From: a virus
IMG/VR virus record: IMGVR_UViG_3300009285_003486
Coordinates: 1-23,378 of that record
Length of the DNA stretch: 23,378 bases
Strand: one strand, 5' to 3'
The position numbers were made by a program, and so were the translations under genes. Each line of letters opens with the position of its first letter. Position 1 is the stretch's first letter. The notes under the pieces were generated by a model. The model did not search any database and was not told the DNA's origin. It saw only the letters and a list, made by a program, of their open reading frames with translations. This document shows, in pieces, positions 2,877 to 23,378 of the stretch.

Positions 2877-2891
2877 CGCGACACTGTCGCG
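2877..2891. repeat. CGCGACA palindrome
   Basis: CGCGACA and TGTCGCG are perfect mirror arms around a single central base. It sits just after the second iteron array and resembles a classic two-fold operator. Confidence 0.5.
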
Positions 2892-2909
2892 TAAATTCGA
2901 TCCGTGAAT

Positions 2910-2942
2910 GAGCCATTAATGAGCCATTAATGCGCCATTAAG
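2910..2942. repeat. Three tandem 11 bp repeats
   Basis: GAGCCATTAAT at 2910-2920 and 2921-2931 is followed by GCGCCATTAAG at 2932-2942, with no spacer. It lies 45 bases before the start codon of the RuvC-like gene, so it could be an AT-rich unwinding element or an operator for that operon. Confidence 0.7.
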
Positions 2943-2987
2943 CAACTCACGATTAGCCTACTTGCGAGTAGAAAGTGGAAAAAACGC

Positions 2988-4080: not shown

Positions 4081-4095
4081 AAGGAAGGAAACAAC

Positions 4096-6544: not shown

Positions 6545-6939
6545 AGAAACGCTGGAAGATCGTCTGGTTCTGGTGGGTGGTGTTATTGTCTTTTCTGACT
6601 CGTGGGGGCAAGGATTGGGAGATCGTCGAGGGGGTGCCGGAGGACGCGAGACTCGTGGATTGGGGCCCCCATACTGACTGGGAAGAACTGGTCGGCTTAG
6701 TGATCGAGTCCGCGTCTTTCCCCGAAGTGGAAATTACGAGTGAACTCTGGGACGTGGTCCGGGACGAGGTTCCCGTCTTGCTTTTGAAAAGCCGGATTAT
6801 CCCCCAGCCCCTTTCCGACGTTCTCCCCGATGACGCGCGCGTGGAACGCGCGCTGACCGCGATCGAGGAGGCGGTGCAAATCCTGCGGGATCTCCGGGAA
6901 GAACCCCGCGCCGAGGGCGCGGGAGAGGAGGCCAGATGA
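6541..6939 (+). CDS. Hypothetical protein with an N-terminal hydrophobic segment
   Basis: 132 residues from GTG 6541 (GTGA overlap; GGGGGAGGAGA upstream). Residues 4-20 (RWKIVWFWWVVLLSFL) form one hydrophobic, Trp-rich segment after a basic start, likely a single membrane anchor or an uncleaved signal. The rest is acidic and soluble, with a predicted helix near the end (VERALTAIEEAVQILRDLRE). This is the only apparent membrane protein in the operon. A role at the cell envelope, such as exclusion of other phages, is possible but unsupported. Confidence 0.55.
   Translation: MKKRWKIVWFWWVVLLSFLTRGGKDWEIVEGVPEDARLVDWGPHTDWEELVGLVIESASFPEVEITSELWDVVRDEVPVLLLKSRIIPQPLSDVLPDDARVERALTAIEEAVQILRDLREEPRAEGAGEEAR
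6905..6923. repeat. Triloop hairpin just before a ribosome binding site
   Basis: CCCGCGCC and GGCGCGGG form a perfect 8 bp stem with a GAG loop, immediately followed by AGAGGAG, the ribosome binding site of the gene at 6936. Folding could affect how well that site is exposed. Similar but imperfect versions precede the start at 6212 (6181-6199) and 6541. Confidence 0.5.
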
Positions 6940-7163
6940 ACTACTTGACGATGGATGAACTCCAGCGGCTTCCCGAGGGGACCACGATTATGGTGGTCTG
7001 GTCGGGAGGAAATGGCCCTTACCGCTATACGCTGACCTTTACGCCCTTGGGGGCTTGCGCGCAAGCCCCCAATATTTGCTATCTCCTGGCGTTTGTGGGG
7101 AAAGCGCATTGCCATACACGGGTTTGGCTGGACGAACCCCGCGCAAGGGGTCTTGTCTTTTGA
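6936..7163 (+). CDS. Small hypothetical protein ending in TRVWLDEP
   Basis: 75 residues from ATG 6936 with a 4 bp overlap. It begins MNYLTMDELQRLPEGTTIMV and ends HTRVWLDEPRARGLVF, sharing the VWLDEP tail with the protein at 6212, of which it may be a diverged, shorter paralogue. Its codons 38-45 include a 26 bp perfect palindrome (7047-7072), encoding GACAQAPN. No family recognised; function unknown. Confidence 0.55.
   Translation: MNYLTMDELQRLPEGTTIMVVWSGGNGPYRYTLTFTPLGACAQAPNICYLLAFVGKAHCHTRVWLDEPRARGLVF
7047..7072. repeat. Perfect 26 bp palindrome
   Basis: TTGGGGGCTTGCG is followed directly by its exact reverse complement, with no mismatches. It can form a cruciform or, in RNA, a very stable hairpin. 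It lies inside a small coding region, where it fixes the amino acids encoded. Confidence 0.75.
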
Positions 7164-7174
7164 CGAGGAGTAAT

Positions 7175-7813
7175 ATGTGCAACGAAGAAGCAGTTTTGAT
7201 CGCGAAGGTCCAGGCCGGGGATCGGGAAGCGGGAGAGATCCTGGTTCGTATCCATACGGGATACGTGAAGAAGGTGGTCACGCATTGGGTCGCTCCCTCG
7301 GATCGGGATTACGAGGATCTTTTGCAAGCTGGATACGAGGGGTTATGGCGGGCCATGCGCGAGTATGACCCGGCCAAGGCGACCACCTTTCTGACCTGGG
7401 CACGGCACAAGATCCGTGATCGCGTCGAAACGGAGTTTCGGCGCTGCAAGCGCGGCCAGGACACGATCCCGTTAAACGGGCGCGAATGGGACCTGGCCCC
7501 GACCCCGGAAGAAGTCATCCTGGCCGAGGCGCAGGCGGAACTAGAGGGGTTGGAATGGCCCTACCCCCGCCGAGACGGGTTTGACGCCGCCTTCGGCGAG
7601 TATCTGCGGAGGCAGGAATTTACCGGGGCGCAATTGCGGGGTATCGCCGATTGTTGCGAGGTGACGGTGGAGGCCGTGGTCAAATGGTTTTCCGGGACGT
7701 CCCAGCCCATGTTTCTTGACGACGTGGCGATTATTGCCGAGAAGCTGGGGCTGTTGATGGACGAGTTAGTACGCCACTGGCGGCGGCGCAAGGGGACCGT
7801 CTCCCCCGCCTAA
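7175..7813 (+). CDS. Sigma-70 region 2 fused to a Cro/CI-type helix-turn-helix
   Basis: 212 residues, ATG 7175 with GAGGAG 4 bases upstream. Residues about 20-90 match sigma-70 region 2, the part that binds core RNA polymerase and melts the -10 element: DYEDLLQAGYEGLWRAMREYD, then TTFLTWARHKIRDRVETEFRR. A conventional region 4 is not apparent. Residues about 148-200 instead look like a Cro/CI (XRE) domain: LRGIADCCEVTVEAVVKWF, SGTSQP, then AIIAEKLGLLMDELV. It is the last gene of this operon and sits just before the terminase genes, which suits a late-gene transcription switch. The sigma assignment is good; the replacement of region 4 is my reading of the sequence pattern. Confidence 0.72.
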   Translation: MCNEEAVLIAKVQAGDREAGEILVRIHTGYVKKVVTHWVAPSDRDYEDLLQAGYEGLWRAMREYDPAKATTFLTWARHKIRDRVETEFRRCKRGQDTIPLNGREWDLAPTPEEVILAEAQAELEGLEWPYPRRDGFDAAFGEYLRRQEFTGAQLRGIADCCEVTVEAVVKWFSGTSQPMFLDDVAIIAEKLGLLMDELVRHWRRRKGTVSPA

Positions 7814-7864: not shown

Positions 7865-8338
7865 ATGAAATCAACCTGCACGAGCAAAACGGGGGGGCGG
7901 CGCATCGGCGAAGCCGAGCGCGAAGCGAAGGCGGTCGAGTTGCGCCGGCAGGGTAAGAATTACGACCAGATTGCCGCCACGGTGGGGTTTGCCGACCGCA
8001 GTGGAGCGTTCCGCGCCGTGAAACGGGCGCTGGAACGCCTGCGCAAACAGACGACCGAGGAGGCGGTCGTGTTGCTGCGTCTGGAAAACGACCGTCTGGA
8101 CGTGTTGCAGGCGGCGATCTGGGAGCAGGCGGTGGAGCAAGGGGACCTGTTTGCGGTGGATCGCCTGCTGCGTCTGATGCAGCGGCGGGCGGCCCTCAAT
8201 GGCCTGGATCAGCCCACCAAAACCCAGGTCACCGGCGCGAACGGCGATCCCCTGACGGTGGCGCTGACGGCCCCCGACTTACTGGAAGAATTGCGAGGCT
8301 TGAAAGAGCTCTATGGACAACTTACCGGAGAAAAATGA
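7865..8338 (+). CDS. terS: Terminase small subunit-like DNA-binding protein
   Basis: 157 residues, ATG 7865 with GAGGAAG 10 bases upstream. An N-terminal helix-turn-helix (AVELRRQGKNYDQIAATVGF, then SGAFRAVKRALERL) precedes a helical segment (LENDRLDVLQAAIWEQAVEQ) and RLLRLMQRRAALNGLDQPTK. That order matches small terminases that recognise viral DNA and recruit the large subunit, and it directly precedes the large terminase gene with a 26 bp overlap. The annotation rests on architecture and position. A TATATT box at 7835-7840 in the upstream gap might belong to a late promoter, but no -35 partner is clear. Confidence 0.75.
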   Translation: MKSTCTSKTGGRRIGEAEREAKAVELRRQGKNYDQIAATVGFADRSGAFRAVKRALERLRKQTTEEAVVLLRLENDRLDVLQAAIWEQAVEQGDLFAVDRLLRLMQRRAALNGLDQPTKTQVTGANGDPLTVALTAPDLLEELRGLKELYGQLTGEK

Positions 8339-8978
8339 GGCCATTGTCCTGGCCCGGGGCATTTATGCGGCGGGCTGGGCGGGCGCGTGGGCCTTTCTCA
8401 CCCGACAAGTTTTCACCCGTGACGAGGCGGACCCGCAAGCACCGATCAAGCCCTTTCCCGACAAGGAATATTTGAGACTGCTCACCCAGCGCTGGGTAGA
8501 AGAGAAGCTATTAGCGGTGCCCAAGTCAAGGCGGATGTTGGTTAGCTGGGCCTTGACCGCGTTGCACCTCTGGGACGCGCTGCTCCACGAGTACCGCGCT
8601 ATTTACATCGGTGCGCGGAAGCTGGAAGGCAGCGAAGAACTGGTCGGGCGGTGCAAGTTTATCCATGAGCACCTCCGTATGCCGGGGTTATTCCCAGTGG
8701 TCAAGACGCGCGCGGCCCGGGCGTCTAAACACCCCGAAGCCGTCAACGCGCTGCACGTCCCGGAAACCGGCAGTAGTATTCAGGCCGTCGCCGAAGGCGC
8801 GGATCAAATGCGCCAGTATGCCGCCTCGCGGTATCTGGGGGACGAGTTCGCCTTCTGGGGGAAGGCGCGGGCCACCTGGACCGCGCTCAAGCCGGCTGTC
8901 GAGGGTGGGGGACAGATCTGTATCGTCTCTTCGCCCTCGCCGGGGTTTATGGAGGCGATTGTCCATGACCAGTTGTGA
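8313..8978 (+). CDS. terL: Terminase large subunit, ATPase half
   Basis: 221 residues. It contains the packaging-motor ATPase: Walker A variant VPKSRRMLVSW (about 69-79), Walker B with catalytic Glu in RYLGDEFAFW (Asp177, Glu178) and coupling motif III ICIVSSPSP (202-210). The ATPase hydrolyses ATP to drive DNA into the prohead through the portal. The protein stops at FMEAIVHDQL, exactly where full-length large terminases continue into the nuclease domain. That domain is encoded 1.3 kb downstream, at 10305. Joining the two at the shared Asp-Gln would give a normal-size terminase of about 550 residues. The next small gene starts 14 bases before this stop. Confidence 0.85.
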   Translation: MDNLPEKNEAIVLARGIYAAGWAGAWAFLTRQVFTRDEADPQAPIKPFPDKEYLRLLTQRWVEEKLLAVPKSRRMLVSWALTALHLWDALLHEYRAIYIGARKLEGSEELVGRCKFIHEHLRMPGLFPVVKTRAARASKHPEAVNALHVPETGSSIQAVAEGADQMRQYAASRYLGDEFAFWGKARATWTALKPAVEGGGQICIVSSPSPGFMEAIVHDQL

Positions 8979-9222: not shown

Positions 9223-9445
9223 GGTGGGTATCCTGTTAGGGGGAGACGGAAAGTCGATGAGGCGTATGTCCCCGGGGGAGGTGGAGGGGTTCCGTCAAGG
9301 GTTGGCCACCATCCCGGATGGTCATAGCCTTTTTTACGACCATGACCTGAGTTTTGAGAGAGGGGTGCAGTTGGTGATGGGGTGGAAGCAACCCGTGTGG
9401 TCCAGCGCGGAAAAAGAAAGGGAGGAAACAAAAGATGGCGATTGA
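9215..9445 (+). CDS. Small hypothetical protein inside the terminase gap
   Basis: 76 residues from ATG 9215, 8 bp overlap with the gene before, GGGAGGAAG upstream. It reads MDEVGILLGGDGKSMRRMSP and ends SAEKEREETKDGD, the tail again reflecting the next gene's AAAGAAAGGGAGGAAA. The middle (FYDHDLSFERGVQLVMGW) suggests a small mixed alpha/beta fold. No family recognised. Confidence 0.5.
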   Translation: MDEVGILLGGDGKSMRRMSPGEVEGFRQGLATIPDGHSLFYDHDLSFERGVQLVMGWKQPVWSSAEKEREETKDGD

Positions 9446-9851
9446 CGATGAGGAAAGAAAGGAGTTGGAAGCCTTGCGTTTGTTGGCGCAAGGCCGAATC
9501 GAGTCCCTGGCGCAACCGGGAATGATCGTGGTGTTTCAGGGGGAGGAGATGTTTTGGCAAGTCTCCCTGCATGAGTTTGGGAAATGGATGGATCGGCAGG
9601 GGGTTCGGGATGTCTGTCTGGTCGTTATCGGGTCGGGGATCGATGCGGTGAGTTGTTTTCATGAAGCCGAGATGGCTAATCTTGGTTGGGTGCGCATGGA
9701 GAGGGCGAGGGAGACCGTTCTTACCGTCATCGAACACTTCAAGCCCCTGGCCCACCGGATTGCCACGGCGATCGAGGAAAAGATCCGGAAACTGCGTTTT
9801 CCCGGGGAACCGGAAAAAGAAAGGAAGAAGAACGATGGGTGTAACGATTGA
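9435..9851 (+). CDS. Hypothetical protein, paralogue 1 of a tandem pair
   Basis: 138 residues from ATG 9435 with an 11 bp overlap. The C-terminal part, TVIEHFKPLAHRIATAIEEK then IRKLRFPGEPE, recurs in the next protein, with matching DNA at a constant offset of 490 bases. The N-terminal parts differ: this one has GMIVVFQGEEMFWQVSLHEF. The shared module looks like one amphipathic helix with a basic end, which could be a docking tail for a common partner. Function unknown; the position between terminase halves is the main clue. Confidence 0.55.
   Translation: MAIDDEERKELEALRLLAQGRIESLAQPGMIVVFQGEEMFWQVSLHEFGKWMDRQGVRDVCLVVIGSGIDAVSCFHEAEMANLGWVRMERARETVLTVIEHFKPLAHRIATAIEEKIRKLRFPGEPEKERKKNDGCND
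9721..9815 (+). repeat. Direct repeat copy A (with 10211-10305)
   Basis: About 95 bases that align without gaps to 10211-10305 (offset 490), including 28 identical bases starting at 9781. It encodes the shared C-terminal helix of the two paralogous genes. Confidence 0.75.
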
Positions 9852-10308
9852 CGAAGGGAAAATAGTGGTGTTGTTTTTCCAGGAGGATCCGGGCGAACCG
9901 CCCAACCGCAAAGAGAACCCGGAGGCGTGGGAAGCCTGGCATCAACAGGCTAGCGTTTGTCTCGAGCCGAAATGGCGGTTGCTCAATACCATGTGGAATT
10001 CGGGGTATTGCGGGTATCTCTGCGCCCTGACTCCCGTGGAGGCCAAGGAGTCCCTGGCGGCTCTGGGACTTGACGTGGAAAAATATGCGGCGATGGAGTT
10101 GGAGCCCGACATCCAGAAGAATTTCCAGCGAGACCACCGTGATCTTTTCCGGTCGCCAGGGGGGATCTATGAGCAGAGAGATGGTTGGAACAAAGCCATC
10201 GCCGCCGTCCTTGCCGTCATCGAACACTGGAAGCCCCTGGCTTTTCGCGTGGCGACGGCCATTGCTGACCAGATCCGGAAACTGCGTTTTCCCGGGGAGC
10301 CGGAGTGA
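9835..10308 (+). CDS. Hypothetical protein, paralogue 2 of a tandem pair
   Basis: 157 residues from ATG 9835, 17 bp overlap, AAGGAAGAAG upstream. The unique N-terminal part includes GKIVVLFFQEDPGEPPNRKE and EAWEAWHQQASVCLEPKW; the C-terminal part, AVIEHWKPLAFRVATAI then IRKLRFPGEPE, is shared with the previous gene. The two were probably made by duplication of the 3' segment or of a whole gene followed by divergence. The final codons overlap the GTG start of the terminase nuclease half by 4 bases, so translation of the two is coupled. Function unknown. Confidence 0.55.
   Translation: MGVTIDEGKIVVLFFQEDPGEPPNRKENPEAWEAWHQQASVCLEPKWRLLNTMWNSGYCGYLCALTPVEAKESLAALGLDVEKYAAMELEPDIQKNFQRDHRDLFRSPGGIYEQRDGWNKAIAAVLAVIEHWKPLAFRVATAIADQIRKLRFPGEPE
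10211..10305 (+). repeat. Direct repeat copy B (with 9721-9815)
   Basis: Second copy of the 95-base repeat. Its right edge falls on the GTG start codon of the terminase nuclease half, so the repeat boundary coincides with the resumption of terminase coding sequence. Confidence 0.7.
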
Positions 10309-11315
10309 GCGTTGCCCTCACAGACCAAACGGGCCTGCGCGAGTGGACTACGGACGCAGGTTTCCACGTACTGCAAATCCACTACACCGCCGACCCCGAC
10401 AAGCGGTCGGAGGAGTGGAAACGGCAGGCCCGGCAGGGATTAGACGACCTGGGTTGGGATCGCGAGTTTGAACTCAACTGGTCGTCAGTGGAGGGGTTGC
10501 CGGTGTTTCGCCACGCCTGGGAAAGCGAAGTCCACGTGGCGAAAACGCCGCTGGCCTATCTCCCGGAAATTCCCGTAGTACGGGGATGGGACTTCGGCTT
10601 GATGCCGGCCTGTGTGTTCTCTCAGTTTACCCCCGGGGGGAGGTGGAACGTCCTGGCCGAAGTCCAGGGTCTACACACGGGTATTCGCTCGTTATGTCGT
10701 CTGATCAAAGCCGAGTACCTGCCCCGGTTTCCCGGGGCGAAGTATGAGGACTACTGCGACCCCGCGGGGTTTAGCCAGTCGCAGACGGACGAGAAAACCT
10801 GCGCTGAGATCATGGCCGAGGAACTCGGCCAATGGCCCAATCGCGGCATTCAGACTTGGACCGAACGCTATGACGCGGTGAGCGAATGGCTGCGCGGCGA
10901 GACCGAGGACGGCACGCCGCTCTTCCAAATGAACTCCTGCTGCCATATCCTCAAACAAGGCTTTGAGGGCGCGTACCATTACCGGGAAATGGCCGAAGGC
11001 CGTTTCAAGGAAGAACCGGAAAAGAACCGCTTCTCGCATTTGCAAGACGCGCTGCAATACCCCGCGACCTGCAACCGGCTCGGCCAGGGGTTGGTGCTGC
11101 ACCCCACGCCCGAACAGCGCGGGAAAATAGACTGTCCGCATGAGTGGGTCGAGTCCGGTGCGGTGGCCGGAATGCGGGTCTGCTGGCGTTGCGGTCAGGC
11201 CGAGAAGAATGAGGCGGATCTGGAACTGGAAGCGTTGGCGCAACGCGCCGACCGTTTCGGGGAGATCGGCGAGGACGTGATTGACCACTTGCGAGAATTA
11301 GGAATCTATCGCTAA
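10305..11315 (+). CDS. terL: Terminase large subunit, nuclease half
   Basis: 336 residues from GTG 10305 (GTGA overlap, GGGGAG about 5 bases upstream). After a short lead (VSVALTDQTGLREW) it continues as the second half of a large terminase: HYTADPDKRSEEW, then the RNase H-fold nuclease with VVRGWDFGLMPACVF (Asp96), EDYCDPAG (Asp152) and FSHLQDALQY (Asp248), probable metal-binding acids. The nuclease cuts concatemeric DNA at the start and end of packaging. The C-terminus has a Cys/His cluster (CPHEW, then CWRCG) like a small zinc knuckle, not usual in terminases as far as I know. The two-polypeptide arrangement with the gene at 8313 is unusual; splicing has not been excluded. Confidence 0.82.
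   Translation: MSVALTDQTGLREWTTDAGFHVLQIHYTADPDKRSEEWKRQARQGLDDLGWDREFELNWSSVEGLPVFRHAWESEVHVAKTPLAYLPEIPVVRGWDFGLMPACVFSQFTPGGRWNVLAEVQGLHTGIRSLCRLIKAEYLPRFPGAKYEDYCDPAGFSQSQTDEKTCAEIMAEELGQWPNRGIQTWTERYDAVSEWLRGETEDGTPLFQMNSCCHILKQGFEGAYHYREMAEGRFKEEPEKNRFSHLQDALQYPATCNRLGQGLVLHPTPEQRGKIDCPHEWVESGAVAGMRVCWRCGQAEKNEADLELEALAQRADRFGEIGEDVIDHLRELGIYR
10813..10831. repeat. GAA-triloop hairpin inside the terminase nuclease gene
   Basis: TGGCCGAG and CTCGGCCA form a perfect 8 bp stem around GAA. GNA triloops closed by a G-C or C-G pair are known to be unusually stable in DNA. Confidence 0.5.
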
Positions 11316-13267
11316 TGCATAACGGAATTTCCAAAGGCGCACGCTTTGAGCTATTGATGGACGAAGTGGAGTCCCGGATCGCGAACGGGAACGGGAACGT
11401 TCCTGTCCCGGAACTGTGGCTGCCCCCGGCGGTGCAGTCGCAGTTGGTGCAGAAAGCGCTAGGGGACCTGCGCGGTCAGGTGGTGCGGCTGCCCAACGGC
11501 GAGCAAGTCGCCGTCGTTCAGGCCGATGAGGAACTGGTGAAGTCACTCTCCGGCGGGCAAGCGCAAGCGCAGCCCTACCGGGGTACGCCGGGCCTGCTGG
11601 AAATGGGTGCTGCGCCGGGGATTGTGAACCCTCCCGCGCGCGAGCGCATCACCTGGGAAGCGCTGCGGACCGTGCCGCAGCGCAATCCCGTCTTCGCGGC
11701 CATTGAGCAGCGTTTCCTGAATATTCTGGCGCGGTTTAGCCGACCGAACCCCGAAAAGCAGCAGGTCGGGTTTGAGATCGGGTTGCGTGATCCGAAGCAG
11801 AACATGACGTCGGCGGCCCAGAAGAAAGCCACCTGGATTCAGCAATTGCTCTGGCATGGCGGGTTGGTGCGCGAACACCCCCGGACCGGTGAACCGGCGG
11901 TGTGGTCGGCGGACTTCACCGAAGCCGCCGACGACTTCCCGACCTTCCTGCGGAAGGTTTTTACCGACCGTCTGCGTTTCGATCATGCGGCTATTCGCTT
12001 CGAGGTCGGCGAGAACGAGAAGAAATACCCGATTGTTTTCTTCAAGTCCGTGGACGGGGCGCGGGTGCGCCGCGCCCGTCCGCAGCAGCCCGGCAAGGAC
12101 GAGGTGAAAGCGCCCTTTTTCTTCCGGCAGGGAGGGTATATTCCCACTATCCGACCCGAGTTGAAGCACGTCAAATACGTCTTGGTGTTGCCCACCACCG
12201 AAAACCAGGTCGAGCGGGAGTTTCAATGGGACGAGTTGACCGTGCTGGTACAGAACCCGTCCAACGACCCCACCCGCAGCGAGATCGGCTATCCCGAAAA
12301 CGAAATGTGTCTGGACTTGATTACCGGGATTCTCTACGGGATGGAAACGAACCTGGAAAAGTTCGACAGCAACCACATTCCCCGGGGGTTTCTCGTTGTG
12401 AAAATGCGTCAGATCCGTGAGGGAATGTCGGGCGCGGAGGATACCCGGATCGCCTCGTTTCGCAAATACCTGCGCCTGAGCGTTGGGGGAATGGGACAAC
12501 TGTGGGCGCTACCGATTATTAGCGTGGACCCGAATCTTGGCGAGGATGTGCCGGAATACATCAAGATGGACGAAGACCCCTCGGCCGGCATGTATTGGAA
12601 GGAGTGGATGATCTTCTGTGCCAGCGTTGCCGCGGCGGTGCATGGCCTGCAAGCGGGAGAGTTGAACTTCGCTCACTTCGGGCAAAGTTCCAATGCGCTG
12701 AGCAGCGACTCGCTGGAAGAGCGGATTGAGTATAGCGCCTCTACTGGCGTGGTTCCAAAGATGCAATGGCTGGGCCAAAAATTGGACACGGCCAGCGTCG
12801 CCCGGATCGATCCTGATTTCTGCTTCCGGTTCGTTAACCTGGAGCCTCGGTCGGAGGAGGCGGAACAGAAAGCGGACGCCCATTTTCTGAGCAATGGGAT
12901 TAAATCCGTCGCGGAAATTCGTACCGAGAAGGACCTGTCGCCCGTGCGCGATCCGTTGGATCGCGACCTGTGGCGGCAGGTGTGCAAGCAACGCGAAGAG
13001 TCCGAGGCCAAACTCAAAGAAGAGGACGAGGACGCCTGGTGGGAGATGGTGGCGAATACCTACGAGGAGTCGGGCGGGGAATTTGCGCAATGGCCCACGG
13101 CCCCGCAGGGGCCCCTCTTGCAGGTATGGATGGCCGAGCATGGGATCGGGGGGATGGGGGGACCGGTAGGGCCGGAAGGTCCTGGTGGGGAACCGGGAGA
13201 AGAGGAAGAAGAAGAAGCGCCGCCGCAGGCGGCGCAAGGGGAAGAAGAAGGAAGGAAGGAAGCGTGA
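11315..13267 (+). CDS. Portal protein
   Basis: 650 residues from ATG 11315, sharing one base with the terminase stop (TAATG). Size, position after the terminase and before a minor head protein, and internal sequence (ERITWEALRTVPQRNPVFAA near 110-130; HIPRGFLVVKM and an acidic, helical C-terminus) fit a tailed-phage portal, the dodecameric ring at the capsid vertex that DNA is pumped through and to which the tail is attached. The final 50 residues are a low-complexity Gly/Pro then Glu-rich tail (EEEEEEAPPQAAQGEEEGRKE). There is no single diagnostic motif that I can point to, so the call relies on context, length and overall pattern. Confidence 0.78.
   Translation: MHNGISKGARFELLMDEVESRIANGNGNVPVPELWLPPAVQSQLVQKALGDLRGQVVRLPNGEQVAVVQADEELVKSLSGGQAQAQPYRGTPGLLEMGAAPGIVNPPARERITWEALRTVPQRNPVFAAIEQRFLNILARFSRPNPEKQQVGFEIGLRDPKQNMTSAAQKKATWIQQLLWHGGLVREHPRTGEPAVWSADFTEAADDFPTFLRKVFTDRLRFDHAAIRFEVGENEKKYPIVFFKSVDGARVRRARPQQPGKDEVKAPFFFRQGGYIPTIRPELKHVKYVLVLPTTENQVEREFQWDELTVLVQNPSNDPTRSEIGYPENEMCLDLITGILYGMETNLEKFDSNHIPRGFLVVKMRQIREGMSGAEDTRIASFRKYLRLSVGGMGQLWALPIISVDPNLGEDVPEYIKMDEDPSAGMYWKEWMIFCASVAAAVHGLQAGELNFAHFGQSSNALSSDSLEERIEYSASTGVVPKMQWLGQKLDTASVARIDPDFCFRFVNLEPRSEEAEQKADAHFLSNGIKSVAEIRTEKDLSPVRDPLDRDLWRQVCKQREESEAKLKEEDEDAWWEMVANTYEESGGEFAQWPTAPQGPLLQVWMAEHGIGGMGGPVGPEGPGGEPGEEEEEEAPPQAAQGEEEGRKEA
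13217..13235. repeat. GCA-triloop hairpin near the portal gene end
   Basis: GCGCCGCC and GGCGGCGC pair over 8 bp around GCA. It lies about 30 bases before the next gene's start, followed by AAGGGGAAGAAGAAGGAAGGAAG. Confidence 0.5.
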
Positions 13268-15039: not shown

Positions 15040-15543
15040 ATGCCAGCGTTTATAAAAACAGCGAAAGACGAAGCGGCGTGGGCGGAGGCGAAAGCCGCCG
15101 TCCGCAAGCAATACCCGGACCTCTCCGAGGACGACGACCGTTTCTGGCGGCTGGTCAACGCCATTTACCAGAAAATGGCCGGGAAGGTGGCGAAAGCTTT
15201 GAGTGCGACGCAACAGGCCGACTTTGACCGGGAAACCCAAGCAATCCGGGAACACGCCAAAACCGCCGTCGCGAAGCGACGACACAAATTCCAGAGAGCG
15301 AAATGGACCCATCCGAACGGCCATCCCCGTTGTCGGATCTGTGGGGACGAGCAGCCCGTGGGGGGATACTGTGAGCCAGAGCCGCAGCCGGTGAAAAAGG
15401 CGGTCTGGGGGTTCCGGGTGAACCGCGCGGCGTTGACGCCGCAACGGCTCTGGGGGTGGACGCTGCGCAAGAGCGCGGCGCGGAAAGAACGGTTCCCGCA
15501 GGAGATTGTGGAAGCATCGCAAGAGGCGAGGGAAAGGGGTTAG
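15040..15543 (+). CDS. Virion-block protein with two WGW/WGF motifs
   Basis: 167 residues from ATG 15040, AAGGAG 6 bases upstream. The N-terminal 50 residues (FIKTAKDEAAWAEAKAAVRK, then SEDDDRFWRLVNAIYQKM) form a helical module recognisable from other phage structural-region proteins, where K-D-x-x-x-W-x-x-A-K and F-W-x-L-V-x-x-I-Y-x-K-M patterns occur. A CRIC...GDE segment could bind metal. The C-terminal half has two copies of the W-G motif: KKAVWGFRV and RLWGWTLRK. Function is unknown. Location between head and topoisomerase genes suggests a minor virion or assembly protein. Confidence 0.6.
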   Translation: MPAFIKTAKDEAAWAEAKAAVRKQYPDLSEDDDRFWRLVNAIYQKMAGKVAKALSATQQADFDRETQAIREHAKTAVAKRRHKFQRAKWTHPNGHPRCRICGDEQPVGGYCEPEPQPVKKAVWGFRVNRAALTPQRLWGWTLRKSAARKERFPQEIVEASQEARERG

Positions 15544-15545
15544 AC

Positions 15546-16466
15546 ATGCTCTGGGGTTGGCTGATCAAAGGTCGGCGGGCGTCCTCTCGGAAGGACGCCT
15601 GGAAAACAGAGCCGCGCGACGAGTCCGGGCGTTGGACGATTCTCGGCGAGTCGTCCACGGGACCGCTCCGCAAGGAAAGCGGCGTATCGCTCACGGGAGA
15701 GGAAGAAATTCGCGCACGGCACTATCTGAAGGGCCGTCCCGATCTGGTCAAGGTCCGTATCAACCCCGATCCCGACGCGGATCTACAAGGGATCGGGTTT
15801 GACCGCAAGGGGAAACGGGTCTACTTGTATACCGCCTCGCACAAGACCGCCTCCGCCGAGGAGAAGTTTACCCGCGCGAAAGACTTCGCGCGGGTATTGC
15901 CCCGGTTGCGACGTGAAGTCAAAGCGGCCGCGCCAGCCGGGGATGAAGTAGCGTCCGTGGTGCTGTTGATCGACCGGACGGCGTTCCGCGTCGGCTCGAC
16001 CCGGGACACGCAAGCGGAGAAGCAAGCCTTTGGCGCGACCACGTTGCAAGCGCAGCATGTGCGGATCGAAGGGGATACCGTCCACTTCGACTTCACCGGC
16101 AAGAAGGGGGTGGCGCAAAAGCACTCCATCCGCAGTCGGGACCTGGCTCGGGTGATGACCCGGCAGTTAGCGGGGAAAGCGCCGGAAGATCGTCTCTTCT
16201 CGGTCTCCGAAATGCAAGTCAACAAGTATCTCGCGCGTTTCGGGGACTTTACCGCGAAAGACTTTCGGACCTATCACGCCTCGCAACTGGCGCGGGAGCA
16301 AGTGGAGAAGCTCCCCGCTCCGGCGACGCCGAAAGCGTTTCAGAAGTTACAAAAGCAAGTGGCGGTGCTGGTCTCTCAATTTCTGGGGAATACCCCCCAG
16401 ATTGCCTTGAAGGACTACATCGATCCGACGGTTTTCGCTCCGTGGGAAATTATGAAGGGAAATTAA
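15546..16466 (+). CDS. DNA topoisomerase type IB
   Basis: 306 residues from ATG 15546. The full type IB catalytic set is visible: Arg148 (LLIDRTAFRVGS), Lys186 (FTGKKGVAQKH), Arg241 with His244 (FRTYHAS) and the nucleophile Tyr291 (LKDYIDP), in the same order as poxvirus and bacterial enzymes. It relaxes supercoils by a transient 3'-phosphotyrosine link. Residues 2-8 are LWGWLIK, the motif repeated in neighbouring proteins. A normal topoisomerase N-terminus starts only near residue 45 (SGVSLTGEEEIRARHY), so the first 45 residues are an added segment. Placement among structural genes, away from replication genes, is unexpected. The 12 bp hairpin at 15869-15896 lies within the gene. Confidence 0.88.
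   Translation: MLWGWLIKGRRASSRKDAWKTEPRDESGRWTILGESSTGPLRKESGVSLTGEEEIRARHYLKGRPDLVKVRINPDPDADLQGIGFDRKGKRVYLYTASHKTASAEEKFTRAKDFARVLPRLRREVKAAAPAGDEVASVVLLIDRTAFRVGSTRDTQAEKQAFGATTLQAQHVRIEGDTVHFDFTGKKGVAQKHSIRSRDLARVMTRQLAGKAPEDRLFSVSEMQVNKYLARFGDFTAKDFRTYHASQLAREQVEKLPAPATPKAFQKLQKQVAVLVSQFLGNTPQIALKDYIDPTVFAPWEIMKGN
15869..15896. repeat. 12 bp perfect hairpin within the topoisomerase gene
   Basis: TACCCGCGCGAA and TTCGCGCGGGTA pair over 12 bp around an AGAC loop. It is the longest of the coding-region hairpins seen here. Confidence 0.6.
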
Positions 16467-16468
16467 CA

Positions 16469-19400
16469 ATGGTCCCTGTTCACATAAAAGACTCCGAAGA
16501 GGCGCAAGTCGCGCGGGAGAAGTTGTACTTACAGCATTTGGACTCGGTGGTGTTTGTGCCGCCTCCGGTCAAGAAGTCGGTCTGGGGGTGGCTGATCAAG
16601 TCCACCATTCACGGGCATTGGATGACTACACGTAGTGGCAAGCGGGTTTGGGTCAAAGAGCACAGTGATAAGCGGGTCAAACACGCACCGCAGGCGGCGC
16701 TGTTAGACGTCTCCCCGACGGCGAAGCCGTCCGGGAAGGAACGGGCGGCGCAGCCGTCCGCAACCCCGGTCAAGCCCCGTCCACTGAGCCTCTGGGACGT
16801 GGTGGAAGCGCCGGGGACCGCGCCCAAGAAGCCGGAGGTCAAGCCGGAACCCGCGCCGCAGGCGCGGGAAGAGGAGCCCGCTTCGCCGACCGATCAGGTT
16901 TATGCGCTCCTGAAGCAACCCGGCCTGATTTCCATGTCCGATCTCGCGAAGGAGATCGGTTCCCTGGACACGGTATACCGCGCTTTCGCCGAGCTCAAAG
17001 CGCGGGGGACCCCGGCCTATCACCACGGTGACGCCCTCTTCTCGCTGGAGCCGCCGTCAAAATCGGGACGACGGAAGGTAAAGAAGGGACTCTGGGGCTG
17101 GACATTTACCCTGCCCCGAACGCTGTATAAAGCCCATCCGCCGGTGCAGCACACGGGGGAGAAAGTCCCCGTAAAGCAACTCGATCCGGCTCTGCGCAAG
17201 AAGGTTTCGACGGGAACCCACTTTACTTCCGATGAAATGAAGAAACACGGCCTGGTCTGGCGTACCACTGAGGACGGTCGCCATATCATCGTTAAAGACC
17301 TGGGGAATGATGAAGGAGTAGTGGTCGGTGGGGCCGAGGGTAAGATGAATTTTGCCCGGATCAAGCTGAAGGGTGGGAGTTCCGCCGAGGCGAAGCCGCT
17401 GAAAGAAAAGAAAACGACCCCGGAACTGACGGAAAAGGAACATACCGAGGCGGAAGAGAAGCAGAGGGCTATGGTCTCGCGCAAGCAGGAACTCAAACAA
17501 CAGGCGCGGGACCTGGTGCGGAACAAAATTGCTGCGGTGGGCCAGTTGGACCTCGACGAAAAGCAACTACAAAAGGTCCGGGACCTGGCGAAAGACAAGG
17601 CGAAGGCGCAAGGGGTCTTTGGTGAAGCCGCCGACGAATTTGTGAAGCACACGGAACAACAATTCCAGGCCGATCACGCCACGGCGCTGCGCAAAATCCA
17701 ACAGGAGGCGTTAGACCGGGCCTTAAAGAAACATGCGCGGGAACACCAGACCGGGGTAAAACATGAAGCCGAGGCGATTACCGCGGAAGAGGTGGCCGAG
17801 CATGCGGCGAAGCCGCGCGAAGGCAAGGAAGAAGCCACGCCTGACGACATGGTGGCCTACCTGAAGGAACTCCTTCCCGAAAAATTGCAACTCTCCGATG
17901 AAGAAAGCCAACAACTCGTTTCTTCATTTATCGAAGAACGGGAGTTGGACGCGCAAGCGCGGACCTTGCGCCGCGCGCTCAAACGGGGCGAGGCCGAAGG
18001 GATTCGCGCGGTAGACCTGGCAACCCGCGCCTTGACCCCTGAAGAAATGCGGCAATATGCCTCGGAAATGCAGGTTCGCAAGGAAGAAGTCCTGACCAAC
18101 CTGCAACTTGTGCAAGCCGCCGAAGCCGTTCCGAAGTCGATCCGGCAGGAACAGTTGCACCACGGCCTGGCGGATACCGCGGCCGGTCTGGGCTATGAAC
18201 TGTTAGGCGAAACCCTCATGGATACTACGTCGGTACGCAAACTCGGTGCGGCGGCCTCGTCGCGATTAGTGGCCCAGTCTATTTTAGATCGCTATGGAGG
18301 GAATGCCCGGAAAGCCGCGGCCGCGGTGCGCGAGTATGTGGCGCAGCATTCCAGCGCGGTCGCCGCCGCCGCCATGCAGCGGCACGACGACCTCCTGCAG
18401 CGGGCCGGTGAGTTTGAACAGTTCGCTGGAAAGAATGCCAGCAGTCTCTTAACCGCGCAGCAGGCGCGGGCCTATGCGCTGCAATACACCAATGAAGCCA
18501 AGCGCGTGGTCGCCCGCAGTCTGGGCAGTCTGGAAATGGCCTCGTCCGTGGCGGAACTATTGTCACAAGGGCCGATTACGGACCCGCTCTCCCTGCGGGG
18601 CCGGGGAACCCTGGTGGGAACGCATGAAATGGCTGGGGAAATGGGGTTAAGCAAGGGCGATTATACCGTTCAGAAGGAACAACGGCACTACAATCTCCAA
18701 GTGAAACCCGAAGCGATGTCCAAGTTGGTCAAACGGCGCAAGGTCGAAAGCTTGGAACGGGACCGGGAAGTGCAACGGATCAAGGACCTCGGGCAACAGT
18801 CCGAAAATCTCGACCCGGCCACGGGTCGAGAATACCGCGCCCCGGGCCAGCAGGGAAACATTATGCTGTCCGCGCCGCAGGCGGCGGACATTCAAATGTG
18901 GGAGCGGCAGAAGAAGATCCTCGTCACCGACGAAGCGGGTCTGGGAAAAACCGCCGTGGCCATCCTGGGCGCGACCAACCTGGTCGAGCAGGGGCTGGCG
19001 AAGAAGGTCCTGGTGGTCGTGCCGTTGTCCGTGCAACAGCAGTTCAGTGGGGAAATCGAGAAATTTGCCGACCCGAAATACCACGATTCCTACACCGTGG
19101 CCGATAGCCGGGACAAAATGCGCAAGGCGGGAAAAGGCGATCAGGTCTTTACCATCGTCACGCGGGACGCGCTCCGTAATTGGGAGGGAGACATTAAGGA
19201 GGGGGGGTTTGACGCTGTGGTCGTAGACGAGGCGCATGAGTTTACCATTCGCGGCGAGGCCTCCGGCAGTGGGCGTTCGCAGGCCCTACGCCGGGTCCTG
19301 CCGGACATGGAATACGCACTCTTAATGACCGGAACTCCGGTGAAGAATGACCTGACCGAGCTCCATTCCCTGGTGGACAGTCTCCAACCGGGGGCGTTGG

Positions 19401-20359
19401 GGTCCCTGGCGAAGTTCAAGGAACGCTACGGGGGCCTGGAGCGGCGACGGGGACTGTTTGACCAGTCCCTCTTAAATCAATTGCAGCACGAATTAGATGG
19501 GGTGGTGGTGGGCCATTCCCTGCACGTCGAGAAAGACGGATCGCTGGTCATTGAAAACGCCAAGAACCGCTCGGGCAACCCGGTGGAACTGAAGGAACAG
19601 ACGCTCTATGTGGACCCGACCGAGGCGCAAACGCAGCAGATCGCCGAGAATAACGAAATGTATCTGACGGCAAAACGGGCGGGGGTCGCCGGGGTTTCGC
19701 TGGCGAAACACGGCCTGGATAAGAAGGCGGTCAACAATATCAGCGCGGAGGCCAACTCCAAGTCCCAACCCGTGGCGAGTTGGCTCCAGGAGAAGGGCTA
19801 TCCCCAACGGAAGGCGATAGTGTTCTCGGACAGTCCCGAAGTCATTCGCAGCACGATCCTTCCCGCGATGGGGGTGGACCCGAAAGACGCGGTGATTATC
19901 GAAGGAGACGTCAGCGAGTCCTGGCAACGAGACGCGATTGCGCGGTGGTACAACGAGGACGAGGGCAAGCCGCTGGATGAGCGGCAAAGGAGGTGGATTG
20001 AACGGCAGGGATGGGCCGTGAACAAACCGCCGAGAATGCTGTTTGCCACGGATGCGGCGAACTATGGAATGAACCTGCCCGGGGGTTCACTGATGGTTGA
20101 GTGGGACACCACGGACACCGCCGCGACCTCACGGCAGCGCATCGGGCGCGAATGGCGCACCGGGCAGAACGCGGCGACGGTGGACGTGCTTCACGTGCGC
20201 ACGCGCACGCCGCACGAAATGCGAGCCGAGGATCGGCTGAAGAACAAGGCGGCGAGCATGAAGATTGGCGAAGAAACCCGCCACGTGGACGAAAGCGGGT
20301 TTGCGCCGATAGTGGCGGCGCATTTGGGGAAACTGAAGGAAGAGGGCTACGGTGATTAA
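16469..20359 (+). CDS. SNF2-type DNA helicase with N-terminal WGW and winged-helix segments
   Basis: 1296 residues from ATG 16469, 3 bp after the topoisomerase stop. Order: WGW motif 1 (KKSVWGWLIK, near residue 40); a GHW...GKRVWVKEH segment; Pro/Lys-rich linker; winged-helix-like domain (about 140-196); WGW motif 2 (KKGLWGWTF, about 207); a long charged helical region likely to be coiled coil (about 310-560); then the superfamily 2 motor: DEAGLGKT (Walker A, about 821), VVVDEAHEF (about 918), LMTGTPVKN (about 952) and QRIGREWRTGQ (motif VI, about 1223). Motors of this type move along double-stranded DNA and displace proteins. A large SNF2-like protein in the head region recalls phage P1 DarB, an injected antirestriction protein, though no methylase domain is present. 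The ATG at 16442 is an alternative start. Confidence 0.85.
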   Translation: MVPVHIKDSEEAQVAREKLYLQHLDSVVFVPPPVKKSVWGWLIKSTIHGHWMTTRSGKRVWVKEHSDKRVKHAPQAALLDVSPTAKPSGKERAAQPSATPVKPRPLSLWDVVEAPGTAPKKPEVKPEPAPQAREEEPASPTDQVYALLKQPGLISMSDLAKEIGSLDTVYRAFAELKARGTPAYHHGDALFSLEPPSKSGRRKVKKGLWGWTFTLPRTLYKAHPPVQHTGEKVPVKQLDPALRKKVSTGTHFTSDEMKKHGLVWRTTEDGRHIIVKDLGNDEGVVVGGAEGKMNFARIKLKGGSSAEAKPLKEKKTTPELTEKEHTEAEEKQRAMVSRKQELKQQARDLVRNKIAAVGQLDLDEKQLQKVRDLAKDKAKAQGVFGEAADEFVKHTEQQFQADHATALRKIQQEALDRALKKHAREHQTGVKHEAEAITAEEVAEHAAKPREGKEEATPDDMVAYLKELLPEKLQLSDEESQQLVSSFIEERELDAQARTLRRALKRGEAEGIRAVDLATRALTPEEMRQYASEMQVRKEEVLTNLQLVQAAEAVPKSIRQEQLHHGLADTAAGLGYELLGETLMDTTSVRKLGAAASSRLVAQSILDRYGGNARKAAAAVREYVAQHSSAVAAAAMQRHDDLLQRAGEFEQFAGKNASSLLTAQQARAYALQYTNEAKRVVARSLGSLEMASSVAELLSQGPITDPLSLRGRGTLVGTHEMAGEMGLSKGDYTVQKEQRHYNLQVKPEAMSKLVKRRKVESLERDREVQRIKDLGQQSENLDPATGREYRAPGQQGNIMLSAPQAADIQMWERQKKILVTDEAGLGKTAVAILGATNLVEQGLAKKVLVVVPLSVQQQFSGEIEKFADPKYHDSYTVADSRDKMRKAGKGDQVFTIVTRDALRNWEGDIKEGGFDAVVVDEAHEFTIRGEASGSGRSQALRRVLPDMEYALLMTGTPVKNDLTELHSLVDSLQPGALGSLAKFKERYGGLERRRGLFDQSLLNQLQHELDGVVVGHSLHVEKDGSLVIENAKNRSGNPVELKEQTLYVDPTEAQTQQIAENNEMYLTAKRAGVAGVSLAKHGLDKKAVNNISAEANSKSQPVASWLQEKGYPQRKAIVFSDSPEVIRSTILPAMGVDPKDAVIIEGDVSESWQRDAIARWYNEDEGKPLDERQRRWIERQGWAVNKPPRMLFATDAANYGMNLPGGSLMVEWDTTDTAATSRQRIGREWRTGQNAATVDVLHVRTRTPHEMRAEDRLKNKAASMKIGEETRHVDESGFAPIVAAHLGKLKEEGYGD
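16717..16731. repeat. GAA-triloop hairpin in the helicase gene
   Basis: GACGGC and GCCGTC pair over 6 bp around GAA, in the sequence coding for the Pro/Lys-rich linker. Confidence 0.4.
16850..16868. repeat. GCA-triloop hairpin in the helicase gene
   Basis: CCCGCGCC and GGCGCGGG pair over 8 bp around GCA. Its arms are identical to those at 6905-6923, although the genes are unrelated and the reading frame differs in meaning. Confidence 0.5.
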
Positions 20360-22310
20360 GCTGTCTTTGAGTCAAGCCAGGGAATATTTGGAACTGTGTA
20401 AGTCCCGTGTTGCGGGTCATTATAGCACCTCCGGGAAGGGCAAACGGTATTGGGTGGCCGAACACGAGGACCAGCGCACCAAACGGGAACCGGGCGCGTC
20501 CGTGACTGCCCCGCGCGCGGCGGCGAAGAAGGAGACGAACCCGGCCACGTCCTTTTGGGCGAAGGTGGGCGAAGACGCCAAGAAGATTGACGCGGCCAAG
20601 GAAACGGAAACGAAACCGGCTCCCAAGCCAATCGCGAAGCAACCGCTGGAAAAGAAACCGTCCGCCGCGCCGAAGAAGCCCGTTACCGCGAAACCGTCAC
20701 AACCCAGTCAGGAAGAACTGAAAGCCACCGTGTTGCAGGTACTTCAAGCGGCGAAGGGGAAGCGAGTTCACCTCGATCAAATCATCAAAAAGACCGGGTT
20801 AGAGGGGGGACAGGTGAACGCCGGATTGGTGTTGTTGGAGTTGAGCAATCAAATCCTACGCTATCCCGGTGGGGAATTTGCGCTTGTGATCGCGAAGAAG
20901 CCGGCGGCAAAACCGCCGGAAAAGAAACCGCTCGCCGCGCCGAAGAAGCCCGCACCCGCAACCCCGAAGGAAGGGTTGTTTGCACCACGGGCCACGGAAG
21001 GGAAATTTGCCGGGCGGCCCTTGCGCCCGGACGGGCGCTTAGAGCCGCAACCGGGCGATCAGGTCTATATGGTCTTTGCCGGTTTTGGGGGGATGCCTGC
21101 TTCGGTGAAGGGGGAAGTCTATTCAAGTAAAAAGGGGTTGCGGGTGAAAATCACCGGATCTCATTCCGCGTTGGGTGGCGAGGGGGGGGTGTCCGGCCCC
21201 AAGGCGATGGACCTGGACGAAGAATGGACGGTCGAGGGGGACCCGGAAATCAATCGGCGCGTGGCTGCACAGAACGCCAAACGCGAAGCGGGGGCGAAAG
21301 CGAAGCAGGAAACCGCAGCGAAACGGGAACAGGCGCACCAGGAATGGATGAAAGAAACCCGGAAACGGGGCAAGGTCACACCGGAAAAGGTGAAACCCGG
21401 CGATATTGTGCAAGAGTTTCATCCGGCCTATGACGAACCCCATTATTCCGTTGTGCATGGCATGGAGGAGCGGGGAATCCAGGGTCTTAGCGAGGGAGAC
21501 GACCCGACCGAGAGGCGTCCCTATGATCTCGGCGACCCGGTAAACATGCGTCTCCTCAATCGCCAGGAAATCGCCAAGTTGCCCGATCCACTGAAAGAAC
21601 ATGCGAAGCAGGTTCGCACGGGCAAGGTCGCGCAGCACTGGGAAAAGGTGGAGCGCGAATACCGGGAAAAGGAAGAGTCCCAGGAACGGGCGCAAGCGGA
21701 ACTCGCGGCAAAGCATGGGGGCAAGACCGTGGGGGACTTGGTGGGCGACGCGAAGTCGGCTCCCTTGGGGGTTATTTCCTCGAAGGATCTTTCCTTGAAA
21801 GTGTCCCTGCAATGGCGAAAGAACGAGTCTCGTATTGCGGGAGGGCATTATGAGGTTGTCTTGCACGACGAGGGGAAAAAGGTTCCCTTGCACCTCTATT
21901 TTAGCAAAGAGGATAGTTTGGGGAAAGTGGAAGAGGACATTAAGGGGGAACTGGCCGAGGGCGCAGTGCTCCAGATCGGAGCGAGCCTTCCGGCGAAGCC
22001 GCCGGTTTCCCGTTCAGCAACGCCCCGGAAAACAGAACAACCGAAAGATATTCCCGACGTATCCCAGGAACACTATCCCGGCATGCTGTTTCCGGGAAGC
22101 GGAAATGCTCGCTTTAACCAGGAGGCATCCTTACGATTGGGGCATCAGGTCTATACCAAGCAAATGACGCCTGCCGATGCGGTAGACCTACTAAAAACCA
22201 TAGGACAGACCGGAAACTATTATGCCCAACAGGAATTAAAGACGATGGTGTCCTACTGGCGCAAGAAACTCAAAAAGTCCTGGGGCTGGACGATTAGAAA
22301 GGTGGCATAA
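20352..22310 (+). CDS. Winged-helix, Lys/Pro/Ala-rich protein ending in a WGW motif
   Basis: 652 residues from GTG 20352, 8 bp overlap with the helicase gene. Residues about 22-38 (GHYSTSGKGKRYWVAEH) repeat the GHW...GKR-WV-EH segment of the helicase. Lys/Pro/Ala-rich linkers (KKPSAAPKKPVTAKP and a near copy later) flank a winged helix (about 121-180; VHLDQIIKKTGLEGG, then LVLLELSNQILRYPGGEFAL) that resembles the DprA C-terminal DNA-binding domain. A helical, charged middle follows, then a C-terminal KSWGWTIRKVA. The composition is like histone H1-type DNA condensers. I infer a DNA-binding virion or packaging partner of the helicase; enzymatic motifs are absent. Confidence 0.65.
   Translation: MIKLSLSQAREYLELCKSRVAGHYSTSGKGKRYWVAEHEDQRTKREPGASVTAPRAAAKKETNPATSFWAKVGEDAKKIDAAKETETKPAPKPIAKQPLEKKPSAAPKKPVTAKPSQPSQEELKATVLQVLQAAKGKRVHLDQIIKKTGLEGGQVNAGLVLLELSNQILRYPGGEFALVIAKKPAAKPPEKKPLAAPKKPAPATPKEGLFAPRATEGKFAGRPLRPDGRLEPQPGDQVYMVFAGFGGMPASVKGEVYSSKKGLRVKITGSHSALGGEGGVSGPKAMDLDEEWTVEGDPEINRRVAAQNAKREAGAKAKQETAAKREQAHQEWMKETRKRGKVTPEKVKPGDIVQEFHPAYDEPHYSVVHGMEERGIQGLSEGDDPTERRPYDLGDPVNMRLLNRQEIAKLPDPLKEHAKQVRTGKVAQHWEKVEREYREKEESQERAQAELAAKHGGKTVGDLVGDAKSAPLGVISSKDLSLKVSLQWRKNESRIAGGHYEVVLHDEGKKVPLHLYFSKEDSLGKVEEDIKGELAEGAVLQIGASLPAKPPVSRSATPRKTEQPKDIPDVSQEHYPGMLFPGSGNARFNQEASLRLGHQVYTKQMTPADAVDLLKTIGQTGNYYAQQELKTMVSYWRKKLKKSWGWTIRKVA
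20901..20919. repeat. Hairpin in a Pro/Lys linker
   Basis: CCGGCGG and CCGCCGG pair over 7 bp around a CAAAA loop, within codons of the second Lys/Pro/Ala-rich linker. Confidence 0.4.
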
Positions 22311-22712
22311 ATGAAACGCTTACTCAAGAACCCCCTGCCTCATCCCGACGAAATCCGCACCCGTCATCACCAATCGCTGGCGGCGATTTCTGTCATGCAA
22401 ACACGGCTGGTTGCCGCGCTCCAAGACGGCCAAGCGGAAACGCTGAAGCAACTGAAGGACGCCGAAGCGACGGCTTCACGGTTGCGCCCCGCGATCAAGC
22501 AGTGGGTCGAGGGGGGACTGAAGGACGAAGACCGTCCCCCGGACAAGGACTTGCAAGCCTATCTGGACGCCGTACACCAGGCGCATGAACTGCGTCTGGC
22601 TGATAATGCCGCATACCAGGCGTTGCGGGACCACGAAGAGACGGCGGACGAGGAACCGGAACCAGGGAAAGAGGACCATCAACATGCTCCGTTTCAGCTT
22701 ATCGGACTTTAG
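22311..22712 (+). CDS. Small helical hypothetical protein
   Basis: 133 residues from ATG 22311, directly after the previous TAA with no overlap; no strong ribosome binding site is visible (AAAGGTGG is 7 bases upstream). Almost the whole sequence looks alpha-helical and charged (AALQDGQAETLKQLKDAEAT; VHQAHELRLADNAAYQALRD), with an acidic His-containing end. Small helical proteins in this position are often scaffolds or head-tail accessories, but no family is recognised. Its 3' end overlaps the next gene by 29 bases. Confidence 0.6.
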   Translation: MKRLLKNPLPHPDEIRTRHHQSLAAISVMQTRLVAALQDGQAETLKQLKDAEATASRLRPAIKQWVEGGLKDEDRPPDKDLQAYLDAVHQAHELRLADNAAYQALRDHEETADEEPEPGKEDHQHAPFQLIGL

Positions 22713-23378
22713 CGCGTTAATGAAGAGTCTGGTCCCGTCGCCGGAACCCCCGACCCCCGTGACGCAGGCGTGGGGGTTCCTGGTCAAGGGCACGCAACGC
22801 AAGTATACCGATCCCGGCGAAGGCAGTTCTCACAGTGGCGGTCATTGGGCCATGATTGGCGGGGCATGGGGCAAGCCCCACAAGGCGAAACTGGCTCCCG
22901 GCATGAAGGTTCATTATAAACATCCGGGAACGGAGCGCAAAAAAACCGCCGAGGTTCACCAGATCCACAAAAACAAACAGGGAGAGGTTATGGGGGTGAC
23001 GGTGGTAAAACGCCATTCTACGACGGGGTCGGAGATTGCCCGTCACCGTTTAGATCCGGCGGTGATTATGGGGAAGGCCGACCCCACGGCCGAGGGGCAA
23101 TTCGCGGGAAGGGAGGCTGTGGCAAAACAAAGGCAAGCGGCGCAGGAGCGAGAACAGACGATCAGAAAGGAATTGGAGGAGGCGAAACAACAATCGAAGG
23201 AGCGGATTGCGGCGGCGGTCGCCGCAGAAGAAGCCAAGATCCAGGAGTTCACCTCCTCTCATGCGCGTAAGCAAGCACGGATCAAGGCTAAGGCTCGTCT
23301 CGATCAACTCCGGAAAACGGAACAGACCCGATTAAAGGAAATGACCCAGGCCGCTCGAAAATTCGTGGAGGCGGGTTA
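22684..23378 (+). CDS. Hypothetical virion-block protein with a WGF motif (3' end outside window)
   Basis: 231 complete codons from ATG 22684 with no stop before the window edge. Residues 27-36 are TQAWGFLVKG, the motif seen upstream, followed by GSSHSGGHWAMIGG, similar to the GHW segment of the helicase. A beta-rich region (AKLAPGMKVHYKHPG; GEVMGVTVVKRHS) looks like a small SH3-type barrel. From about residue 135 to the end the sequence is a long charged helix (REQTIRKELEEAKQQSKERI), probably a coiled coil. Function unknown. Start ATG overlaps the previous gene by 29 bases, with GGGAAAGAGGA upstream. Confidence 0.65.
   Translation, partial: MLRFSLSDFSALMKSLVPSPEPPTPVTQAWGFLVKGTQRKYTDPGEGSSHSGGHWAMIGGAWGKPHKAKLAPGMKVHYKHPGTERKKTAEVHQIHKNKQGEVMGVTVVKRHSTTGSEIARHRLDPAVIMGKADPTAEGQFAGREAVAKQRQAAQEREQTIRKELEEAKQQSKERIAAAVAAEEAKIQEFTSSHARKQARIKAKARLDQLRKTEQTRLKEMTQAARKFVEAG

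Follow-up and report, generated by a model that had tools for sequence, protein, structure and literature searches.

A recurrent WG[WF] peptide beside lysine junctions in five proteins of a virus contig: a candidate removable capsid-targeting sequence

Gene content of the contig and the five motif-bearing proteins

The stretch of DNA analysed here, hereafter called the window, is a virus contig of 23,378 bases, which is the whole record in itself and ends before any recognisable head protease, scaffold or capsid gene. Its terminase is encoded by two ORFs, the large terminase being apparently split (8313-8978 and 10305-11315) with small genes in between, where Rfam did not reveal an intron; two of these small genes (9435-9851 and 9661-10308) have the C-terminal sequence IRKLRFPGEPE in common. 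Several successive small proteins at 5655-6939 have a common C-terminal tail (RADGTGEETP, CAEGTGEETS, RAEGAGEEAR). Neither Rfam families nor tRNAs have been detected in the window. After a SPO1/Herelleviridae-like portal protein follow, in this order, a MuF-like protein, a HAD-like protein, the small protein p15040, a topoisomerase IB, a SNF2-type helicase, a winged-helix protein and a last protein (Table 1). The gene product after the portal is taken by us to be MuF-like from its cysteine motifs as judged by eye, with a family search retrieving only phrog_24776 of unknown function, while the protein upstream of the five motif-bearing proteins, equally identified by eye, is presumably HAD-like.

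The N-terminal module of p15040, MPxFIKTxxDExxWxxAK..FWxLVNxIYQKM, is also present in phage proteins of five other loci (L136, L022, L017, L019 and L009). In an AlphaFold2 model based on a shallow alignment, the pLDDT is about 93 at residues 11-40 and lowest (<50) at residues 119-129 and 138-149, where both WG[WF] copies of this protein reside; such a region of predicted flexibility fits a linear motif. The topoisomerase IB possesses the catalytic core domain of its class (PF01028) and starts probably with the ATG at 15546, which makes the motif residues 3-5 of the protein. The helicase, with a probable start at 16469 in an ORF extending from 16442, combines a SNF2 domain with additional domains, is encoded beside the portal and the MuF-like gene and is homologous to the polyvalent helicases of three loci (L038, L045 and L054); a methyltransferase (MTase), ART or peptidase domain has not been found in it by Pfam. 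An intein-like insertion seemingly interrupts the L045 polyvalent helicase (1725-7649, minus strand) at its Walker A motif (..GAGCVYGGTRLHC ... VNHNSGKTG). For the last protein, the start lies probably at 22684 or at 22720, which places the motif at residue 30 or 18, respectively.

Table 1. Coordinates of the portal, the five motif-bearing proteins and their tags and junctions in the window; a slash marks a candidate cut.
Feature	Position	Strand	Remarks
Portal protein, SPO1/Herelleviridae-like	11315..13267	+	phrog_11117 1.3e-11; matches to SPO1-type phages
Candidate cut site LVK/S, portal N-terminal region	11534..11545	+	relatives also have xK[SA][LM] there
p15040, cargo candidate	15040..15543	+	167 aa; N-terminal helical module, then flexible C-terminal third
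p15040 tag segment VKK/AVWGFRVNRAALTPQRLWGWTLRK/S	15391..15474	+	two WG[WF], enclosed by candidate cut sites at both ends
Topoisomerase IB	15546..16466	+	Pfam Topoisom_I PF01028 8.4e-31, residues 127-303
Topoisomerase N-terminal tag MLWGWLIK/G	15546..15572	+	
SNF2-type helicase, polyvalent/DarB-like	16469..20359	+	SNF2-rel_dom 9.8e-20, phrog_62 1.4e-52
Helicase tag A, VKK/SVWGWLIK/S	16568..16603	+	motif at residue 39
Hairpin-like module STIHGHWMTTRSGKRVWVKEHSDKR	16601..16675	+	directly after tag A; also in L038, L045, L162, L190, L058
Helicase tag B, VKK/GLWGWTFTLPRTLYK/A	17078..17134	+	between winged-helix-like and helicase-N regions
Winged-helix protein	20352..22310	+	652 aa; Pfam DprA_WH 1.8e-9
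Winged-helix N-terminal candidate cut site LCK/S and module SRVAGHYSTSGKGKRYWVAEHEDQR	20394..20477	+	no WGW
Winged-helix C-terminal tag LKK/SWGWTIRKVA-stop	22269..22310	+	WG[WF] in the last 9 residues
Last protein, cargo candidate	22684..23376	+	cut by the window end
Last protein N-terminal segment LMK/SLVPSPEPPTPVTQAWGFLVK/G	22717..22791	+	
W codons of the seven WG[WF] copies	15406, 15451, 15552, 16583, 17093, 22281, 22771		in five proteins
Exact matches to [KR]xxWG[WF]x[IVL][KR]	16574, 22272		helicase; winged-helix C-terminus
Example junction peptide SVWGWLIKSTIHG			candidate S78 protease substrate

Recurrence of the WG[WF] peptide and the adjoining lysine junction

A preliminary description of this DNA had counted the pattern [KR]xxWG[WF]x[IVL][KR] seven times. 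The exact pattern matches at only 2 places and it is the core WG[WF] that occurs seven times; the proposed consensus was too strict and had overlooked the junction of Lys with a small residue, which is the informative part. In the five proteins, which together comprise 2694 aa, the seven copies of WG[WF] compare with 0.105 expected, and the maximum reached in 20,000 shuffles was 2. The other window genes counted contain 2 copies in 4354 aa with three times as many W, the motif not being common in the non-head proteins of the window, and non-redundant proteins from related loci contain 8 in 151,910 aa, equivalent to 0.14 per 2694 aa. Equally, an unbiased all-against-all comparison of the window proteins placed the tag segments near the top, with scores of 49, 46 and 40 at a shuffle maximum of 41. 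The same peptide is carried by five otherwise different proteins of one phage, as is demanded from a capsid-targeting sequence. Most copies are unlike one another in codons and in the DNA around them, which indicates that the repeat is conserved at the peptide level, with selection acting on the peptide.

The location of the motif at chain ends or between domains is seen at the N-terminus of the topoisomerase, at the C-terminus of the winged-helix protein and in the helicase, whose tag B lies within the chain and not near a terminus. Its hosts are mostly unrelated in fold, as had been stated, but the helicase and the winged-helix protein both possess a GKRxWVxEHxDxR module. An eighth WGF, N-terminal in a ParB/DNA-methylase-like ORF (505-1866; MKRTPWGFRRKA at 505, ORF start MKRTPWGFRRKARGAR), is devoid of a flanking LxK site; this ORF could encode a further cargo protein or the match could be due to chance.

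The junction [LIVM]-x-K/[SAG], with its hydrophobic residue at P3, touches all seven WG[WF] copies, before the tag, after it or on both sides. Next to the tags, 8 such junctions were found versus 0.29 expected upon shuffling of the 12 flanking residues, a number not attained in any of 20,000 shuffles. Gly at P1' had been admitted after inspection of the window, and the figure restricted to [SA], with 5 junctions versus 0.23 expected at four of the seven copies (P=1e-4), is the fairer one; the control LxK[DETLV] was found once around the tags with 0.35 expected. All site statistics, here and in the relatives, were designed after the data had been seen. In four of the seven copies, a candidate LxK[SAG] site, a predicted cut, follows downstream within 5 residues.

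Junctions and tags in phages with SPO1-like portals

The relatives used for comparison were gathered by portal and helicase similarity, not at random, and their portals are about 25% identical to the portal of the window. In these distant relatives with SPO1-like portals, LxK/[SA] marks processing by the head protease. The full-length deposit of the phage 812 capsid protein (5lii) has DVVK24-SFQTGYG and the chain in the virion (9row, 9rox, 9roz) begins at S25, directly after VVK24; a mature capsid protein starting after Lys was found in phage 812 only. In SPO1, the annotated scaffold gp3.3 has 11 LxK[SA] sites versus 0.95 expected, the capsid protein exactly one, at K23/A24, and the tail sheath none. 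Richness of the scaffold in LxK[SA] extends to the relatives, as 33 non-redundant ORFs located just upstream of capsid genes harbour 233 sites versus 40.5 expected, an about sixfold excess in a set consisting mostly of scaffolds, in which a few other proteins lower the ratio and do not raise it. In those relatives that were tested, the head protease is a S78 serine protease. In some loci (L202 16859-19847, L094, L053 and L156 11490-12251), the N-terminal arm of the capsid protein, K[SA]LxAGYGTD...TGGxALRIQSL, is found again at the C-terminus of the protease.

In the other proteins of the loci with SPO1-like portals, LxK[SA] is 3.4x enriched in the first 60 residues and 2.8x in the last 30 versus 1.16x in the middle, with values of 1.7x, 1.3x and 1.2x for the same regions in control loci. 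LxR[SA], LxE[SA], LxK[DE] and LxK[LV] remain near 1x over the N-terminal 60 residues of these proteins and LxK[TG] reaches only 1.5x there. Furthermore, one large group of portals has ..xK[SA]FG[LM]Pxxx at the C-terminus, with a hydrophobic residue behind it. This portal tail, K[SA]FG[LM]P with a hydrophobic end, is seen after an acidic linker in L162 (9890-11584), L190 (9701-11401) and L054 (1777-3543) and equally in about 25 further divergent portals. A published statement of an LxK/S rule was not found in the open literature; for the Listeria phage A511, Lys-Ser cleavage has reportedly been observed.

In none of the other viruses sampled was the tag seen in its WG[WF] version. Searches with DNA patterns for KKxxWGWxIK or an N-terminal M-phi-WGW-x-phi-K tag gave chance matches only, tblastn with the tag region or with p15040 against phages gave no match, single-protein 8-mer searches of viral contigs recovered no relatives of the helicase or the portal, and scanning of bacterial genomes with a portal alignment yielded 7 loci only, all distant, so that no close relative of the window phage emerged from the 8-mer, DNA-pattern and portal-alignment searches. 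Absence from related phages had been regarded in the preliminary description as an argument against a role of the motif. WG[WF] is absent there, but several relatives possess a different recurrent peptide of their own in the same position, beside the same junction. A [ML][DEN]LYIDL[GEA]K/[GAS] tag occurs in seven loci (L142, L143, L146, L154, L156, L167 and L170) on one or two cargo proteins per locus; the two cargo families share homology across about their first 100 residues and the instances of the tag are therefore not fully independent. In the loci searched, no scaffold was found to carry the LYIDL pattern, which argues that the tag does not simply reflect a cleavage consensus. In L058, three proteins start with xQF[DT]LLK/SHIDAYTRKDGAVVxAHDDxR, two of them being highly identical over only about 28 residues, at the tag, and the module after the cut matches the one behind helicase tag A. 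In L154, L156, L170 and relatives, three proteins encoded upstream of the portal have the module DGRT[FI]TR[MK]QWV in common.

A tentative generalization, to which we give less than an even chance, is that phages with SPO1-like portals, among them many metagenomic ones with polyvalent cargo, use a general packaging code consisting of a short, lineage-specific hydrophobic or aromatic address joined to LxK/[SAG], whereby any gene gaining such an element would become cargo. The divergence of the addresses between phages (WG[WF], LYIDL, QFDLLK) perhaps keeps the cargo sets specific to one head.

A putative removable capsid-targeting sequence in the light of known systems

The motif had been suggested to be either a docking tag or a prohead protease site. 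With a short tag lying directly beside candidate protease sites, both together are favoured: with a probability that we place slightly above even, WG[WF] combined with LxK/[SAG] would be a phage-specific removable capsid-targeting sequence (CTS), which loads cargo enzymes into the head. This reading builds on what can be extracted from sequence comparison, the recurrence of the peptide, its position, the flanking junctions and the tie of the junction to head processing in relatives. The aromatic part would attach to the scaffold core, the shell or the portal while the prohead assembles, and thereby bring topoisomerase IB, the SNF2 helicase, the winged-helix protein, p15040 and the last protein into the head; upon maturation, a S78-type protease would cut after Lys and free the enzymes from the core, to be ejected along with the DNA. 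Processing is better supported than docking. As the contig ends ahead of the protease, scaffold and capsid genes of this phage, the LxK rule is borrowed from distant phages, and by analogy the protease of the window phage is expected to follow it; equally, WG[WF] would be the putative docking part, and the five tagged proteins would presumably reside in the virion. The homology of the helicase to the DarB class, with an N-terminal CTS demonstrated for P1 DarB, supports the CTS reading. Against it count the internal location of helicase tag B, where cutting would split the chain, and the N-terminus of the winged-helix protein, which has a junction and a module, but no WG[WF].

Among the alternatives, WG[WF] might be only an extended recognition element of the head protease, with docking performed by something else. 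We consider this unlikely: no copy is more than a few residues away from a candidate cut site, and the scaffolds of SPO1-like heads are probably cut at many LxK[SA] sites, but LVK/SL occurs in the portal of this phage without WG[WF], LYIDL-like tags mark the cargo of relatives while their scaffold sites occur without them, and the tags vary between lineages, whereas the junction does not. A reading of the motif as a generic cleavage consensus is also disfavoured, because the cargo tags are missing from the scaffold sites of relatives. A role of WG[WF] as a docking peptide that stays uncleaved, binding for instance to the portal or the shell interior, next to Lys-Ser junctions that are basic linkers, appears improbable, as the flanking junctions exceed shuffles of the local composition and the junction tracks head processing in relatives; the location of tags at the ends of chains and within a flexible stretch, and the resemblance of the winged-helix C-terminal tag to the tails K[SA]FGLPVxxI at the C-termini of portals in relatives, would nevertheless agree with it. 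Still less credence is given to a small linker element through which polyvalent-type proteins would bind DNA or a partner, with no role in packaging. The motif is indeed basic and aromatic and adjoins short modules (GKRxWVxEHxDKR, GSSHxGG, PRDExGRW) that recur in several phages; its strict placement at a processing junction and on residue 3 of the topoisomerase, and the unrelated sequences in the same place in other lineages, speak against such an element. Chance or recent DNA duplication is very improbable, as, although 19 of 24 upstream bases are alike between p15040 copy 1 and helicase copy 1, seven copies stand against 0.1 expected and duplication is rejected for most copies, which differ in codons and flanks.

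The way in which large polyvalent enzymes are selected for packaging has been established in very few phages (T4, P1). If the CTS reading holds, a rule of tag plus cut site would allow the prediction of virion cargo from metagenomic phage sequence, the question of packaging would become testable with one reporter fusion and more short addresses would be usable for protein delivery by phage.

In phage T4, the CTS of IPI/II/III and Alt is a 10-residue N-terminal peptide that binds the core, and gp21 cuts at L/I-x-E; the targeting residues lie ahead of the cut motif and are separable from the processing residues, and gp21 also cuts the scaffold into multiple fragments (PMC9026906). The window tag is alike as a short peptide on different proteins next to a candidate hydrophobic-x-charged cut motif, but it consists of WG[WF] with a predicted cut after Lys (LxK/[SAG]) and is found also at C-termini, between domains and on large nucleic-acid enzymes. 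In phage P1, the SNF2-containing polyvalent antirestriction protein DarB is packaged via its first 30 residues, the Dar proteins have no common consensus and the capsid protein is cut after Glu120 (PMC9024508). The window equally encodes a SNF2-type protein with an N-terminal candidate packaging tag, but has one tag on five proteins, beside Lys junctions. With SPO1 and 812 of the Herelleviridae, the window shares the SPO1-like portal, and the relatives have LxK/[SA] in the portal, the scaffold and the capsid N-terminus; unlike in those phages, the protease, scaffold and capsid genes lie outside the contig, and the identity of the portals is low. In SPN3US and phiKZ, with AxE as the cleavage motif, propeptides of ejection proteins are cut by the head protease and two diverged paralogues have identical N-termini (PMC5694885), but in contrast to the window tags these propeptides are mostly long and cut after Glu. 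Polyvalent proteins have been predicted to be packaged, as stated in passages of Iyer et al. (2017; PMC5512222), where targeted text searches did not retrieve a discussion of short motifs. In common with the proteins described in these passages, a SNF2 ATPase is encoded beside a portal and a MuF-like gene in the window (PMC5512222), whereas the window activities are spread over several genes bearing one tag. We conclude by analogy that the WG[WF] tag may work like the CTS of T4, but on polyvalent-type cargo.
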